Shown here piece after piece: positions 4,917 to 42,888 of a DNA stretch of 50,524 nt. The stretch is from an uncultured bacterium (GTDB lineage: Bacteria; Patescibacteriota; Minisyncoccia; Phycocordibacterales; PALSA-1337), in assembly GCA_903842025.1 (NCBI GenBank), contig CAIMKX010000038.1, forward strand, positions 1-50,524, written 5' to 3'. Under the pieces are notes generated by a model. That model did no database searches and was not told the DNA's origin. It saw only the letters and a program-made list of their open reading frames with translations. A program made the translations under genes and the position numbers. Each line of letters begins with the position of its first letter. Within the stretch, counting starts at the first letter, position 1.

Positions 4917-6134
4917 ATGTCCCATTTCATTTTCAAAGCCAAAAAAGCCACCGGTGAAATCTTTTCTGGGGAGAAAGACGCGGCTGACCGCTATGACCTT
5001 TACAAACAGCTCCGCGAGAACGGTGACGAGGTCGTCGAATTCAAGGAAAAAAGGCAATCGGGCAAATTCAATTTCAATATCAATCTTTCCATTTTCAACC
5101 GGGTAAAGACCATAGAGAAGATAAATTTTGCCAGGAATCTCGGTTCGATGCTCGAAGCCGGCTTGAATCTTTCCCGGGCTTTGTCGGTCTTGGAAAGGCA
5201 GACAAAAAGCAAGGTCTTCAAAGTGATCCTGACTAGCCTAATTTCCGATGTCACGAAAGGCGTTACCTTTTCTGAGGCTTTGGCCAAACATACCAAAATC
5301 TTTCCTCCGATTTTCGTCGCTATGGTCCATGCCGGCGAACAGTCGGGAACTCTGGCTGAATCGCTAAAAGTGATCGCTAAACAGATGGACAGCAGTTACA
5401 GCCTGGACCGGAGGATCAAAGGTGCGCTCATGTATCCGGCGGTGATCCTAGTCGCCATGATCCTGATCGGTATCCTCATGTTCATCTTTGTGATCCCGAC
5501 ATTGCTCAAGACTTTCACCGAACTCAACGTCAAATTGCCTTTGACGACCCAGATCGTCCTTAACATCAGCAACACTATCCAAAATCAGGGACTGGTTGTC
5601 TTGGCGATACTCGTCTTGATCGTCGGGGCGATCGTCTGGTACATCCGCCGGCCTTCGGGTAAAAAAATATATCACGCCTTAATTTTGAAGTTGCCGGTAG
5701 TTGGCTCATTGGTCCAGGAGATCAATACGGCAAGGACGGCCAGGACGTTGGCCTCATTGTTGAATTCTGGCGTCGACATCATCGAATCAGTCGACATTAC
5801 GGCGACGGTCGTCCAAAATGTTCATTTTCGGTCAATCCTCGTCAAAGCCTCCGCCGCCATCAAGAAAGGCGATCTGATGTCAAAAATCTTCAATGAGAGC
5901 GGCAAGCTCTACCCCATATTTTTCGCGGAAATGTTGAGCGTCGGCGAGGAAACGGGAAAAACAGGAGAGATGTTGGCCGGTGTAGCCGACTATTACGAGG
6001 AGGATGTGAGCCAAAGAACCAAGGATATGTCCACCGTCATCGAGCCGTTCCTGGTCTTGACGATCGGTGGGGCGGTCGGTTTCTTCGCCATCTCCATGAT
6101 CCAGCCGATCTATTCTCTGGTCGATTCGGTTTAG
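4917..6134 (+). CDS. pilC: type IV pilus inner-membrane platform protein PilC
   Basis: T2SF domain duplications, FARNLGSMLEAGLNLSRALSVLERQ, EEDVSQRTKDMSTVIEPFL. Confidence 0.92.
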   Translation: MSHFIFKAKKATGEIFSGEKDAADRYDLYKQLRENGDEVVEFKEKRQSGKFNFNINLSIFNRVKTIEKINFARNLGSMLEAGLNLSRALSVLERQTKSKVFKVILTSLISDVTKGVTFSEALAKHTKIFPPIFVAMVHAGEQSGTLAESLKVIAKQMDSSYSLDRRIKGALMYPAVILVAMILIGILMFIFVIPTLLKTFTELNVKLPLTTQIVLNISNTIQNQGLVVLAILVLIVGAIVWYIRRPSGKKIYHALILKLPVVGSLVQEINTARTARTLASLLNSGVDIIESVDITATVVQNVHFRSILVKASAAIKKGDLMSKIFNESGKLYPIFFAEMLSVGEETGKTGEMLAGVADYYEEDVSQRTKDMSTVIEPFLVLTIGGAVGFFAISMIQPIYSLVDSV

Positions 6135-14860: not shown

Positions 14861-15298
14861 TGCTTCGGGAGTTTTGTTTAATAATTGCCGTTTCCAACCA
14901 CCAAGCATCTTGCCAATCTCCGCAAATCGTTCGGCCAAGTGAGCATATTTTTTATTGTCTAAAGCTTTGATTTCCCAGGAAAGCTGCAAGAGTAGCTTGA
15001 CCAAATCGATTTTGGATATGCTCTTGTTCAGGAACAATCGTTTTTCTTCGGTATGCGTATAACTGGCGAGAAAGGCGTATTCTATTGCTTCAAGAAAAAG
15101 AATATCGATCTTGGATCCGATGGTATAGCGATTAGTCTTGGGAAAACTCGAAAGGTAAGCTTGCCAGATATTGTAAGTATCCTTCAATTTTAGTACTACG
15201 GGAATAAGCCTAGTTTGTTGCGTTTTTACTCTCTCTCTCTCTCTCTCTCTCTTAAATTCCGCTTCAACTTTATTAATTTCAGTTTCTGAATTATTCAT
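14837..15298 (-). CDS. avd: Avd-like DGR accessory protein (four-helix bundle)
   Basis: W-x-SFPKTNRYTIGSKIDILFLEAIEYAF...LQLSWEIKALDNKKYAHLAERFAEIGKMLGGWKRQ; located between TR and RT; start taken as MNNSETEINK. Confidence 0.82.
   Translation of the reverse strand: MNNSETEINKVEAEFKRERERERVKTQQTRLIPVVLKLKDTYNIWQAYLSSFPKTNRYTIGSKIDILFLEAIEYAFLASYTHTEEKRLFLNKSISKIDLVKLLLQLSWEIKALDNKKYAHLAERFAEIGKMLGGWKRQLLNKTPEAMPQEKRT
15229..15252. repeat. dinucleotide microsatellite (CT)12
   Basis: 24 nt of uninterrupted CT, in frame inside avd (KRERERERV). Confidence 0.97.
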
Positions 15299-16274
15299 GA
15301 TGTACAACCGTATCATTTCTCTGGAAAATTTGCTAGAGGCGTGGAAGGAATTCCTGAAAGGAAAGCGGAACAAGAAAGATGTCCAGGAATTCCAGTATCG
15401 GCTTTCCGACAACATTTTTGCGCTGCATAACGACCTTAAAAACAAAACGTATGTCCATGGAGGCTATTATGCTTTCAATATCTCCGATCCAAAGCCTAGG
15501 AATATTCATAAGGCAAGCGTGAGAGACAGGCTTCTTCATCATGCGCTTTATCGCAAGCTCTGTCAGCTATTTGATGTGCATTTCATTCATGATTCATATT
15601 CATGCCGGAAGTTTCGAGGAACGCACCGCGCGTTGAAATGTTTCAGGGAATTTGCACTCAAAGCCAGTAATAATAATATGAAAACATTATGGATTCTGAA
15701 ATGTGATATCAAGAAGTTTTTCGCATCAGTTGATCAAGCAATTCTTATGGAAATCCTGAAGAAATACATTCCCGATTTCGATGTAATTGATCTAATAAAT
15801 CGAGTAGTCGATAGCTTCAGTAGTACGGCGATTGGAAAGGGACTACCATTAGGAAATCTGACATCTCAACTTCTGGTCAATGTTTATATGAACGAATTCG
15901 ACCAATTCATGAAGCATAAAATCAAAGCCAAATATTATATCCGCTATGCCGATGATTTTGTTATCTTCTCAAGAGACAAGAATTGGCTTTGTAATATCAT
16001 TACGCAAATTTCGGATTTTCTCTGGAATAAACTCAGGCTTCAACTTCATCCAAACAAGGTGTCCGTAAGCACTATTGCTTCCGGTGTCGATTATCTCGGC
16101 TGGGTTCATTTCCCGGATCATCGGATATTGCGAACGGTAACAAAAAAGAGGATGTTCAAAAGATTGAACAAGTCTGAAGGCAAGCCAGAAATAGTTCAAT
16201 CTTATCTGGGGATGCTGGGCCATGGGAATGGTAGAAAATTAAAAGACAAAATTTTGAAAACCTGGCCTATCTGA
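15297..16274 (+). CDS. DGR reverse transcriptase
   Basis: LPLGNLTSQ (RT4), YIRYADDFVIFS catalytic motif, ILKCDIKKFFASVD; next to TR and avd. Confidence 0.95.
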   Translation: MMYNRIISLENLLEAWKEFLKGKRNKKDVQEFQYRLSDNIFALHNDLKNKTYVHGGYYAFNISDPKPRNIHKASVRDRLLHHALYRKLCQLFDVHFIHDSYSCRKFRGTHRALKCFREFALKASNNNMKTLWILKCDIKKFFASVDQAILMEILKKYIPDFDVIDLINRVVDSFSSTAIGKGLPLGNLTSQLLVNVYMNEFDQFMKHKIKAKYYIRYADDFVIFSRDKNWLCNIITQISDFLWNKLRLQLHPNKVSVSTIASGVDYLGWVHFPDHRILRTVTKKRMFKRLNKSEGKPEIVQSYLGMLGHGNGRKLKDKILKTWPI

Positions 16275-19341: not shown

Positions 19342-19350
19342 ATTCACTAT

Positions 19351-19492
19351 GTCTGACATGGTAATGAGGTAATATCATGTTGATAAGCGGCAGTCTTACC
19401 ATGTCAGACATGGTATTTTATCCGGATTTGAACAAAATTTTATCGTTTCTTGAACAAGATTTTATCAGGATTTTATCTCGCTTTGATAAAAT
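19351..19492 (+). promoter_or_regulatory. duplicated regulatory module upstream of comEC
   Basis: Palindrome TACCATGTCAGACATGGTA (19397..19415), ATTTTATC at 19415, 19437, 19459, 19470 and inverted GATAAAAT at 19485. Confidence 0.7.
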
Positions 19493-19524: not shown

Positions 19525-21174
19525 ATGACCAAAAGAGTTTTCATTTTTTGGAGCGTTTTCGTGGCAGCCGCCATATTCAGATTGTGGCAGTCTTTTTACG
19601 TGGTTCTGCCTGATATTGGTGATTGTTTGAAGCAAAATGTCAGTGGAATAGGGACAATTGTAGTTGAACCGGAAAGAAAAGAATCGGGGCAAATTTTGGT
19701 TGTTTCGGTTGAGGGTTTGAATATTTCAAATGGATCAATGAGTTGTCCGGCTGATTTTCTTCTCAGAATGAAAACAAAGTTGTATCCGCGGTTTTCTTAC
19801 GAGGATCGCGTGACATTCAAGGGAAAACTGTTGCAGCCGGTCAATTTTGACAGCGGGTCGGACCGTTCTTTTGATTACAAGGGCTATTTGGCCAAAGACG
19901 ACATTTACTATGAAATGAAAAGTGCGGTAGTGGGATTACAAAAAGACTCTGATGTTGTCATTCCCGCGAACACTGTGTCATTCCCGCGAAGGTCATTCGA
20001 CTCTGAGAGTCTCAGACTCGATGAGCGGGAATCCAGTGTTGAATCGCTGGCGCCATATTCTGCGGCACTGGATTCCCGCTTTCGCGGGAATGACAAACAA
20101 AACAATTCTCTGCAATACAATGAAGGCGGGAATGACAAACAAGAAACCAGCCAGCAAGATAACAAGCAGAACGCCAGTAACTTAATAGAAAATGCTGTTA
20201 ATTCAATTACCTCATATCTTTATCAAATCAAACGCCAACTTGTAACTGTTCTTGAAAAAACCTTGGGCGAACCGCATGCGGCCTTGGCGGCCGGGCTGGT
20301 GGTGGGGGAGAAGGCCGCTTTGGGCAAGGATTTGCTCAATGATTTTCGCATTGTCGGTTTGATTCATATTGTCGTTCTTTCTGGTTACAACATCACGATT
20401 GTCGGCGACGCTTTGCGAAAGCTTCTCTCGTTTCTGCCAAGAGTCTGGGGAATAACGATCGGCGGAATGGGCATTTCACTTTTCGGAATTTTGGTCGGCG
20501 GAGGTGCTACCGTCGTCCGTTCCTGCTTCATGGCCGGAGTGGCCCTTTCCGCCGATCTTATTCGGCGTGATTACAGCGTCATCCGAGCTTTGGTCTTTGC
20601 CGGTCTCATTATGATAATTCAAAATCCATTGATTCTCCTTCATGATCCATCGTTTCAGCTTTCGTTCTTGGCTACGTTGGGTCTAATACTTCTAGCCAGT
20701 CCAATAGAAAAGCGCTTGGGATTTATTCCTGAAAAATTTGGCCTGCGCGGCATAGTCGCTTCGACCCTAGCCACCCAAATCTTCGTCTCGCCGTTCATTC
20801 TCTACATGATGGGTCAGATTTCCATCATTGGAATGGTGGTCAATATTTTGGTTCTGCCTTTTATTCCCGTCACAATGCTATTTGTCTCGCTCACAGGTTT
20901 TCTGGGAATGATTTACTTGCCGTTGGGTCAAATCGTGGCCTGGGGGACTTATCTCTTACTTTCCTATGAATTATTCATGGTCGGACATTTTGCCCGCCTA
21001 CCATTTGCCGCCGTCCATATTCCCGCATTTTCTGGCTGGTGGGTGGTGGGGTTCTATCTAGTCTTCATGATCAGTACAATTCTTATTAGGTCAAAAAAAG
21101 CGCTTGTTTCTGTCATTCCCGCGAAAGCGGGAATCCAGTGTAATGTAAAATGTAAATCTCAAAATGAAAAATGA
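19525..21174 (+). CDS. comEC: ComEC/Rec2 competence membrane channel (without a fused metallo-beta-lactamase domain)
   Basis: GLVVGEKAALGKDLLNDFRIVGLIHIVVLSGYNITIV competence motif, multiple TM. Confidence 0.9.
   Translation: MTKRVFIFWSVFVAAAIFRLWQSFYVVLPDIGDCLKQNVSGIGTIVVEPERKESGQILVVSVEGLNISNGSMSCPADFLLRMKTKLYPRFSYEDRVTFKGKLLQPVNFDSGSDRSFDYKGYLAKDDIYYEMKSAVVGLQKDSDVVIPANTVSFPRRSFDSESLRLDERESSVESLAPYSAALDSRFRGNDKQNNSLQYNEGGNDKQETSQQDNKQNASNLIENAVNSITSYLYQIKRQLVTVLEKTLGEPHAALAAGLVVGEKAALGKDLLNDFRIVGLIHIVVLSGYNITIVGDALRKLLSFLPRVWGITIGGMGISLFGILVGGGATVVRSCFMAGVALSADLIRRDYSVIRALVFAGLIMIIQNPLILLHDPSFQLSFLATLGLILLASPIEKRLGFIPEKFGLRGIVASTLATQIFVSPFILYMMGQISIIGMVVNILVLPFIPVTMLFVSLTGFLGMIYLPLGQIVAWGTYLLLSYELFMVGHFARLPFAAVHIPAFSGWWVVGFYLVFMISTILIRSKKALVSVIPAKAGIQCNVKCKSQNEK
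19957..20095. repeat. REP-like palindromic repeats inside comEC
   Basis: TCATTCCCGCGAA... and CACTGGATTCCCGCTTTCGCGGGAATGACA, translated as LDSRFRGNDKQ. Confidence 0.85.
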
Positions 21175-21321: not shown

Positions 21322-21933
21322 TTAGATCATCGTCACCATCTTGCTTGCCGCCGAGAAATTATCCCCGACAACTTTCCAATTGAGATTGGCGAAGAAGTCC
21401 TCGACATAGTTTTTCTTGCCGGACGGCTGATAGTCGATGACATACGAGTGTTCCCACATATCCAAAGCTAGAATAAGGGCGCAATCTTGCAGTTGGCCAA
21501 GATGTTGCTCGTCGACCCAAGCATTGAGCAGGCGATTGTCCTTGCGGTCAAAATAAAGCATGGTCCAACCGATGCCGCGAGTCAGGGCGATGGCCTTGAA
21601 TTCGGCCAACCAGGAATCGAAGGATCCCCAAGTCTCGACGATCATTTTCTTGAGCTCACTTTTCTCGGCCAAAGGCACGGCGCCGGATTCCAGCGAAGAA
21701 AAATAGACTTCATGGTTGCGCATGCCGTTGTATTCGAAACCGAAGCGTCGGTTGACTTCGCCCAAAGCATAGGCGTTTTTGTCGATATTCTTTTTGAATT
21801 CAGTTATGGTCTCCTGAACTAGGTTGGCATTTTTGACATAACCGGCGTAAAGCTTGAGATGTTCCTCGAGGTTTTTGGCGGAAATGCCCTTGAGATTGGG
21901 GATATTGAATGTTTTAGGGGTGAATTGTTTCAT
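21322..21933 (-). CDS. sodA: superoxide dismutase (Fe/Mn family)
   Basis: GSFDSWLAEFKAIALTRGIGWTMLYFD, LDMWEHSYVIDY. Confidence 0.9.
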   Translation of the reverse strand: MKQFTPKTFNIPNLKGISAKNLEEHLKLYAGYVKNANLVQETITEFKKNIDKNAYALGEVNRRFGFEYNGMRNHEVYFSSLESGAVPLAEKSELKKMIVETWGSFDSWLAEFKAIALTRGIGWTMLYFDRKDNRLLNAWVDEQHLGQLQDCALILALDMWEHSYVIDYQPSGKKNYVEDFFANLNWKVVGDNFSAASKMVTMI

Positions 21934-21994: not shown

Positions 21995-22148
21995 ACCATG
22001 TCTGACATGGTAACGAGGTTATATCATGTTGATAAGCGGCAGTCTTACCATGTCTGACATGGTATTTTATCTGGATTTTAACAAAATTTTATCAATCCTT
22101 GAAAGAGATTTTATCGTTTCTTGAACAAGATTTTATCAGGATTTTATC
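21995..22148 (+). promoter_or_regulatory. second copy of the comEC-type regulatory module
   Basis: Palindromes 21995..22011 and 22046..22064; ATTTTATC at 22064, 22086, 22108, 22130, 22141. Confidence 0.7.
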
Positions 22149-22169
22149 TCTGGCGAGTATGATGGTGTT

Positions 22170-23099
22170 ATGGCAATCAATAACATATCAAAACCATTTG
22201 TCATTGCGGCGGCGGCAACGGCCTTAAGCACCGGTCTCGCTGGTTACGTTTGGCAAGAAGAACACCGCCCGCTGATTCTAGAGATCTACGTTTTTGCTTT
22301 GCCAAATGGTAGATCGATGTTCATCCGAACTCCAGAGGATAAAAGGATTCTTATAGATGGCGGTGGTAACTCCGACATTATTCGGGAAATCACGAAAATT
22401 CTGCCGTTTTATTCGAGACGAATCGACGCGATTCTGGCCACAAACTCTGAAGGAAAGAACGTTTCCGGGCTTATTGATGTTATCGAGAGGTACAAAGTGG
22501 ATACTTCATATTTGCCTGCAGTGACATTGGAAAGCCTAGGTCTGTCCTCTTCGACTGACATGATCTACTCAACTTTGGTCGATACTATTAATCGTCAAAA
22601 TATTGAAATTCGCAAAGTTATTGCCGGCGATTCTATTATTCTTGACGATAAAGTCACGATAAAGCCTTTGTTTCCGGCCACACCAGATCGATTTGTCTAT
22701 TCCAAGGCCAGTGCGCCGGAAATTCTCTTTGATATTTCATTTGGAAAGACAGCGATAGTCTTTCTGGGCAATGGGTCAAATAAGATACAGAAGTTTTTGG
22801 CTTCAACGACGGCTCCGGCATTCACAGATTCAAGCGTACTGATAGTTTCGCACAGCGCTTTGCCGGCCAACATGTCCGCTCAGCTGATCGGTCAAATCAA
22901 ACCGGAATATCTTGTTTATTCAAAGGCCGAGAGCAATAAGCCAGTGGCGCCGCCGAAATCTTCAACTTCAAAGACAAAAAAGAAAGAGATCGTCGATCCT
23001 TTGGCTTATCTTGGAAATGAAAAGCGGTTTAATCTCAAAGAGAAGGGAACTGTGAAGATTACGTCCGATGGTGTTAAGGTTACGGTGGTTAGTGATTAG
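22170..23099 (+). CDS. ComEC-type metallo-beta-lactamase-fold protein
   Basis: FALPNGRSMFIRTPEDKRILIDGGGNSDIIREITKILPFYSRRIDAILAT resembles the ComEC C-terminal MBL domain. Confidence 0.75.
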   Translation: MAINNISKPFVIAAAATALSTGLAGYVWQEEHRPLILEIYVFALPNGRSMFIRTPEDKRILIDGGGNSDIIREITKILPFYSRRIDAILATNSEGKNVSGLIDVIERYKVDTSYLPAVTLESLGLSSSTDMIYSTLVDTINRQNIEIRKVIAGDSIILDDKVTIKPLFPATPDRFVYSKASAPEILFDISFGKTAIVFLGNGSNKIQKFLASTTAPAFTDSSVLIVSHSALPANMSAQLIGQIKPEYLVYSKAESNKPVAPPKSSTSKTKKKEIVDPLAYLGNEKRFNLKEKGTVKITSDGVKVTVVSD

Positions 23100-42066: not shown

Positions 42067-42888
42067 TCATCTGACTCTTGGTAAAGTGACTGTGAATGTC
42101 GAACCTTTTCCTTCGCCCTCAGAATAGGCGTCAATATTGCCTTTGAGCCTTTTCACAATGGATCTGGCCAGATACAATCCGACGCCGAGGCCTTCGGTGT
42201 CAGTATGCCTGGCATTGGCGCCACGGTAGAATTTCCGGAAAATATTGGCCATATCTTCCTTGGCGATACCCATACCGTCGTCGGTTATGGCGATTTTGGC
42301 CTTGCTGATACTCTTGGATACTGTTATGTGGACGGTCCGGCCTGGTGGCGTGTATATGAAAGCATTTTCCAGAAGGGTCTGAAGGACGAATTCCAGTCGT
42401 GGCTTGTCGGATTTGACGAAGATATTGTTATCGTCGCATTTTGATGAAAAGAAGATGTTTTTTCTACGGAATTGCTCTTTGCAGTTGTCGGAGATTATCT
42501 TGAGGAAATCGCAAAGATTGATCCTTTCGATGGCATAAGTGGAGTTGTTTGAGGTGCGGGAATCGGCTATCTCGATCAGGGTTCCGGTCATGTCGATCAA
42601 TTTCTGGTTGGAGACGCCGATGTTCTGGAGATTCTCTTTCTTGAAGGAATCAGTCTCGTCAGCAATCATCGAGTCGGTTATCCATTTGATGGAGGTAAGC
42701 GGAGTGCGGAATTTGTGGGCGATGATCGTGATGAATTCGTATTTCATCTTCTCGTCCCTGGTCAATCGATATCTGATGTAGACAATAATGGCCACAATGA
42801 TGACTACGAAAGCGACCATGGCGATAATGATATTGAAAAGATATCCACTAAAGATCGGGATACTATTCAGATAGATGTCGATAATCAT
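42067..42888 (-). CDS. membrane sensor histidine kinase
   Basis: ITIIAHKFRTPLTSIKWITD (H box), VLQTLLENAFIYTP (N box), DDGMGIAKED, GLGVGLYLARSI. Confidence 0.9.
   Translation of the reverse strand: MIIDIYLNSIPIFSGYLFNIIIAMVAFVVIIVAIIVYIRYRLTRDEKMKYEFITIIAHKFRTPLTSIKWITDSMIADETDSFKKENLQNIGVSNQKLIDMTGTLIEIADSRTSNNSTYAIERINLCDFLKIISDNCKEQFRRKNIFFSSKCDDNNIFVKSDKPRLEFVLQTLLENAFIYTPPGRTVHITVSKSISKAKIAITDDGMGIAKEDMANIFRKFYRGANARHTDTEGLGVGLYLARSIVKRLKGNIDAYSEGEGKGSTFTVTLPRVR

Follow-up and report, generated by a model that had tools for sequence, protein, structure and literature searches.

The DNA analysed here (the window, 50,524 nucleotides) carries a comEC gene that codes for the channel without its metallo-beta-lactamase (MBL) domain and, downstream on the same strand, a separate gene for a ComEC-type MBL domain (Table 1). 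Between the two lies a superoxide dismutase gene on the opposite strand, just as the original prediction had stated. Both the comEC and the MBL gene are preceded by a pair of palindromes, an array of short direct repeats and a −10 element. A reverse transcriptase gene is located a few kilobases upstream of comEC. About 65 codons are inserted in frame into comEC (window 19960–20160); they consist largely of the dispersed palindrome CATTCCCGCGAAAGCGGGAATCCAG, of which the window contains seven copies. The C-terminus of comEC extends into another CATTCCCGCGAAAGCGGGAATCCAG-type copy (21114–21138), and the comEC genes of relatives mostly do without the insertion.

Table 1. Features of the MBL and comEC loci and of linked loci elsewhere; positions refer to the window unless a locus (L) or contig (C) is named.
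Feature	Position	Strand	Remarks
Reverse transcriptase gene	15297–16274		RVT_1
Palindrome pair before comEC	19346–19414		First copy with one mismatch
Predicted comEC operator array	19415–19477	+	Boxes at 19415, 19437, 19459, 19470 plus weaker half-sites between
−10 element TAAAAT, comEC promoter	19487–19492	+	Distance to last box as in the MBL promoter
comEC channel gene without MBL domain	19525–21174	+	DUF4131 and Competence; PF03772 1.4e-46, PF13567 3e-10
Fe/Mn superoxide dismutase gene, between comEC and MBL gene	21322–21933	−	Sod_Fe_C; outside the system
17-bp palindrome pair ACCATGTCTGACATGGT, 52 nt apart	21995–22063		Copies at 21995–22011 and 22047–22063 (17 bp each); dispersed repeat, judged outside the promoter
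Predicted operator array before MBL gene	22064–22148	+	Eight 11-bp-phased half-sites; array score p<1/400 against shuffles
−10 element TATGAT	22158–22163	+	9 nt past the last half-site of the MBL array
Separate ComEC-type MBL-domain gene	22170–23099	+	309 aa; profile matches 30bt_A, 9ic4_A; N-terminal membrane anchor predicted from sequence
TNSEGKN in place of the metal-binding T-H-x-D-x-D-H motif	22440–22460	+	Residues 91–97
Short histidine kinase gene	42067–42888	−	HisKA and HATPase_c; beside the ribosomal protein L2 gene
Candidate response regulator gene	L048:4967–5665	−	Response_reg PF00072 2.7e-22; Trans_reg_C PF00486 9.9e-20
Hairpin RNA after the regulator gene	L048:4720–4880	−	Also in 12 other genomes
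tRNA-like/small-RNA locus L047	G000:C1, ~5100–5250	−	
tRNA-like/small-RNA locus L053	L053:5230–5450	+	
tRNA-like/small-RNA loci L127, L130, L155, L311, L312, L331			

The MBL protein has no match in Pfam. Compared as a profile with the solved C-terminal domains of ComEC, it matches 30bt_A with E=1.4e-24 and 9ic4_A with E=2.3e-23; the single sequence alone matches a ComEC structure with E=8.7e-5. The assignment to the ComEC C-terminal domain in the original prediction is thus upheld, whereas its description of the protein as nuclease-like is probably wrong. The THPDADH motif of ComEC reads TNSEGKN in the window protein, and HxDxDH is kept in none of the 29 MBL sequences from the same genus; the motif is intact in a relative at the level of the order (G047). 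The genus proteins hence lack the HxHxDH-type metal ligands of an active ComEC MBL nuclease. Because these ligands have been lost throughout the genus, the MBL protein is probably not a nuclease. The predicted co-regulation of the MBL gene with comEC suggests that the protein works with the separate ComEC channel, and the lost ligands make it a degenerate, probably non-catalytic partner. Almost half of all ComEC proteins lack such an MBL domain, and an inactive MBL domain has been suggested to guide DNA (PMC8579336). A role in DNA guiding or in structure would also fit the window protein better than nuclease activity. What sets it apart from the C-terminal domain of ComEC (30bt, 9ic4; PMC8579336), with which it agrees in domain type by profile, is that it is encoded by its own gene and has lost the metal ligands genus-wide. 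An AlphaFold model of the protein computed from two sequences (pLDDT 46) was too poor for use.

The repeats in front of the MBL gene were originally described as five ATTTTATC boxes, at 22064, 22086, 22108, 22130 and 22141 (spacings of 22, 22, 22 and 11 nt), and as the comEC array extended by one 22-nt unit. We find both descriptions to be accurate, with all boxes on the plus strand. The window contains 13 matches to ATTTTATC where 3.9 are expected, and none of 100 shuffles reached 13; this repeat pattern is not due to chance. The first reading overlooked the weaker half-sites ATTTTAAC, CCTTGAAA and TCTTGAAC at the midpoints of the 22-nt units. Their presence reduces the true repeat period to 11 bp, so that the MBL array comprises eight half-sites starting at 22064, 22075, 22086, 22097, 22108, 22119, 22130 and 22141 (in order, ATTTTATCTGG ATTTTAACAAA ATTTTATCAAT CCTTGAAAGAG ATTTTATCGTT TCTTGAACAAG ATTTTATCAGG ATTTTATC).

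To find further arrays we searched the whole genome (G000; 949,867 bases in 56 contigs), whose size and gene content suggest a member of the Patescibacteria/CPR, for box pairs with a spacing of 22 nt. The pattern occurs at 27 exact places that group into 11 arrays; read backwards, with 2 mismatches allowed, it gave one match per strand. Each of the 11 arrays has a −10 hexamer (TA....T) that is separated from its last box by exactly 9 nt, and all arrays have the same orientation relative to the downstream gene. Most contain five to nine half-sites, which are near-identical between loci. Ten of the arrays lead a readable gene or RNA, and the eleventh reaches the end of its contig. The genes are comEC, the MBL gene, the pilB-pilC operon (T2SSE, T2SSF), comM (Mg_chelatase), a type IV pilin gene (N_methyl), and genes for a 963-aa secreted LCAT-like protein and an 86-aa coiled-coil protein; the RNAs are a hairpin RNA and two tRNA-like RNAs. 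No array was found upstream of dprA in this genome. Since the start codons of the MBL gene, pilB and comM each lie only 6 nt past the −10 hexamer, these three transcripts are probably leaderless.

Phased arrays also precede comEC, the MBL gene, pilB-pilC, comM and the pilin gene in related genomes. The half-site drifts between species of the genus (ATTTTATC, ATTTGAAC, TCTTTATC, TTCTTCAT), while phase and position are kept. Additional targets in same-genus genomes are dprA, a PemK-like gene followed by dprA, and rpsF-ssb-rpsR. The competence regulon signature for which the original prediction had argued is therefore borne out by arrays at the pilus, uptake and recombination genes. Upstream of the MBL gene, an array scoring higher than any of 400 shuffles was detected in 23 of 29 genomes of the genus, as opposed to 1 of 13 relatives outside it. 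The scorer was tuned by eye on genus sequences and gave no false positives on 290 reversed sequences. Among the genus genomes the spacing between this array and the start codon is often identical. According to the same scorer, an array directly upstream of the MBL gene is missing in five of them (G006, G009, G011, G013 and G027), and some of these MBL genes are perhaps transcribed from elsewhere. The split MBL gene itself is much older than this array; of 60 relatives from across the order, 51 have it. These numbers indicate that a separate MBL gene is ordinary for the order and that, judging from the genomes compared, the control module is confined to the genus. Scanning a genome collection with one array pattern recovered three same-genus MAGs, and the remaining matches were scattered and AT-rich.

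In 13 of 13 genomes (G000, G001, G002, G004, G006, G008, G010, G013, G015, G016, G017, G018 and G019) one array directly adjoins the gene for a response regulator, in the order regulator gene, array, −10 element, hairpin RNA. This regulator keeps the acidic pair, the phospho-Asp position and the lysine of its receiver domain. The 11-bp repeats with the last one at the −35 position have the form of a PhoB-type operator, and this form together with the linkage of gene and array makes the regulator the best candidate for the binder. We consider this PhoB/OmpR-family protein the probable activator. No kinase gene lies beside it, and none of the seven HATPase_c matches in the genome falls at the regulator locus. 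The short histidine kinase in the window has orthologues in many, though not all, genomes of the genus. It is not supported as the general partner, since regulon-bearing G001, G006 and G016 contain no clear full-length orthologue.

The RNA encoded after the regulator gene starts with a GTCGA-loop hairpin (approximate consensus GGTTAYNNGTCGANRTAACC). Among ten compared sequences, five of the seven base pairs changed on both sides, and 94% of the cells are paired as compared to 82% after shuffling. Sliding the partner strand of the hairpin abolishes the pairing signal. A comparison of this RNA with Rfam gave no family match. Near the regulator locus, Rfam does report a DUF3800-V RNA (75 bits, L048:444–539).

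We consider it likely that the stretch before the MBL gene is an activator-dependent promoter of the split-off ComEC domain and belongs to a genus-wide transformation regulon run by the PhoB/OmpR-family regulator. The observed features that fit such a regulon are a regulator with receiver and winged-helix domains, an operator shared by uptake and recombination genes (comEC, MBL gene, pilB-pilC, pilin gene and comM in G000; dprA and ssb in relatives), direct repeats with an 11-bp period, and a proximal repeat at −35 with a fixed distance to the −10 element. In the proposed mechanism the response regulator would bind head to tail on the direct repeats, with all eight half-sites of the MBL array facing the same side of the DNA helix. 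The gene-proximal half-site occupies the location expected for a −35 box. Once bound there, the regulator would keep sigma70 RNA polymerase at a promoter that lacks a good −35 element. We infer that phosphorylation by a histidine kinase turns the regulator on, and likewise that control runs in the direction of activation. This event would jointly switch on comEC, the MBL gene, the type IV pilus genes, comM, the LCAT-like protein and several small RNAs, in relatives also dprA and ssb.

This arrangement resembles two known systems. At promoters controlled by PhoB, the PhoB box takes the place of the −35 element. The pho box consists of two 11-nt direct repeats that are bound head to tail by a winged-helix response regulator of the same class, and its consensus varies by species (PMC4415409). 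Unlike PhoB, the system described here has mostly five to nine half-sites of another sequence, and its targets are DNA uptake, recombination and small RNAs. In Streptococcus, CiaRH opposes competence by way of csRNAs. The OmpR-type regulator CiaR recognizes TTTAAG-N5-TTTAAG, again a repeat with an 11-bp period, drives strong promoters for small RNAs and is tied to competence (PMC8186281). In contrast to CiaR, the operator in our genomes sits on the machinery genes themselves, and no csRNA family match was found in Rfam. A literature search of incomplete coverage turned up neither a competence regulator nor a competence regulon described earlier for this group. A Saccharibacterium has been found to take up DNA and to be transformable, with com genes that are dispensable for growth (PMC10633639, PMC11665869). 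These streamlined bacteria might import DNA either as food or for genetic exchange. The grouping of channel and pilus with comM, dprA and ssb in one regulon speaks for true transformation, and the regulon supplies a named candidate regulator and an operator.

A less probable explanation is that the arrays serve a broader surface, pilus or stress programme of which DNA uptake is just one part, or that another protein binds them. The LCAT-like secreted protein and the small coiled-coil protein among the targets, and the RAYT and PemK-like genes in some relatives, are compatible with a broader programme. Pilus genes serve attachment as well, and in a Saccharibacterium type IV pili were essential independently of competence (PMC10633639). 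However, comM, dprA and ssb, which act on imported DNA, recur among the array targets. As to another binder, the search for Trans_reg_C proteins returned one to two genes in most genomes of the genus. G000 has a second one (on C20), as do several other genus genomes. Yet in G001, G006, G016 and G017, all of which contain arrays, the search turned up no Trans_reg_C protein other than the array-linked regulator, and the adjacency of array and regulator gene in every one of the 13 linked genomes also speaks against a different binder.

The regulon reading treats the arrays as operators in their own right. The original prediction had combined the palindromes and the ATTTTATC boxes into one control module, for which one could imagine a palindrome-binding repressor and an activator. 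The pair does adjoin the array in both window copies and at C9:200, and the pilB array has one palindrome. Nevertheless, the genome has 25 copies of the palindrome pattern CCATGTCNGACATGG, against none for the control, mostly at a distance from arrays and once within the recJ gene (16999), whereas 7 of the 11 arrays have no such palindrome. The copies are often paired about 52 nt apart, and the inner core of the pair is shared at unrelated sites, as in a dispersed element. Since most palindromes lie away from the arrays, we regard the former module as two independent elements; joint control by both is very unlikely. The GTCNGAC palindromes of other species in the genus differ in their arms. 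A Y1 (RAYT) transposase (PF01797), as expected alongside REPIN/RAYT repeats, gave no match in G000, which speaks against this enzyme as the mover of the G000 palindromes. In two relatives a RAYT-type (IS200-like) transposase gene stands directly or closely downstream of an array (L130 in G001, L150 in G011), and the leader of the G001 gene contains the palindrome AGAGGTCTGACCTCT.

That the repeats themselves are a mobile or expanding (iteron- or MITE-like) element which landed before unrelated genes and has no regulatory role is scarcely credible in spite of the near-identical half-sites within a genome and the dispersed palindrome next to some arrays, because uniform orientation and the fixed array-to-−10 geometry (11/11) speak against it, half-sites drift among species while phase and position persist, and the targets form one pathway, with the reversed control near zero.

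The two tRNA-like RNAs of G000 have counterparts in related genomes. Led by an array and following a short hairpin, a tRNA-like fold of about 73 nt occurs twice in G000, twice in G001 and also in G004, G010 and G016; a further copy in G029 has a weak array only. The G3-U70 pair and A73 constitute the alanine identity, which is also used by tmRNA. Both can be read from the sequences of seven of the eight tRNA-like RNAs. With a 7-bp acceptor stem, a standard T arm and weak matches to the tmRNA model (29 bits), these RNAs resemble tmRNA and tRNA-Ala. They differ from both in a large, variable anticodon arm that is complementary to a neighbouring small RNA. We can eliminate the possibility that they serve as the tmRNA of the genome, since a full tmRNA is encoded on C42.

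Each tRNA-like RNA is followed by a promoter of the TTGAC-N-TATA type that leads into a second short RNA, which mostly ends at a visible terminator. Complementarity between this second RNA and a tRNA-like anticodon arm was found at six of the eight loci, each time restricted to the partner from the same locus; the longest exact run with that partner is 9–18 nt as compared to 5–9 nt with all others. In a shuffle test, five of the six complementary pairs gave 0/500; the pair from G004 gave 18/500, yet it extends over 14 nt with one wobble. Such paired change across loci is strong evidence that the interaction between the two RNAs is real. A possible, though doubtful, explanation is that the regulator switches on an alanine-chargeable tRNA-like RNA whose anticodon arm is held by a dedicated antisense RNA from a constitutive promoter. 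During competence, the tRNA-like RNA might outrun this antidote and act, for example, as a decoy for AlaRS or for the ribosome that slows growth during uptake. Growth control during competence as the function of the RNA pair is a guess. If true, the tRNA-like/antisense pairs would add a new class to the known regulatory RNAs.

A PemK/MazF-like gene stands immediately 3′ of an array, with dprA next, at L137 (G006) and L153 (G011). The LCAT-like acyltransferase/lipase, a secreted protein of about 960 aa, lies under competence-type arrays in six genomes, including L055 (G000:C52, 4869, minus strand), and could be a lytic or lipid-harvesting enzyme.
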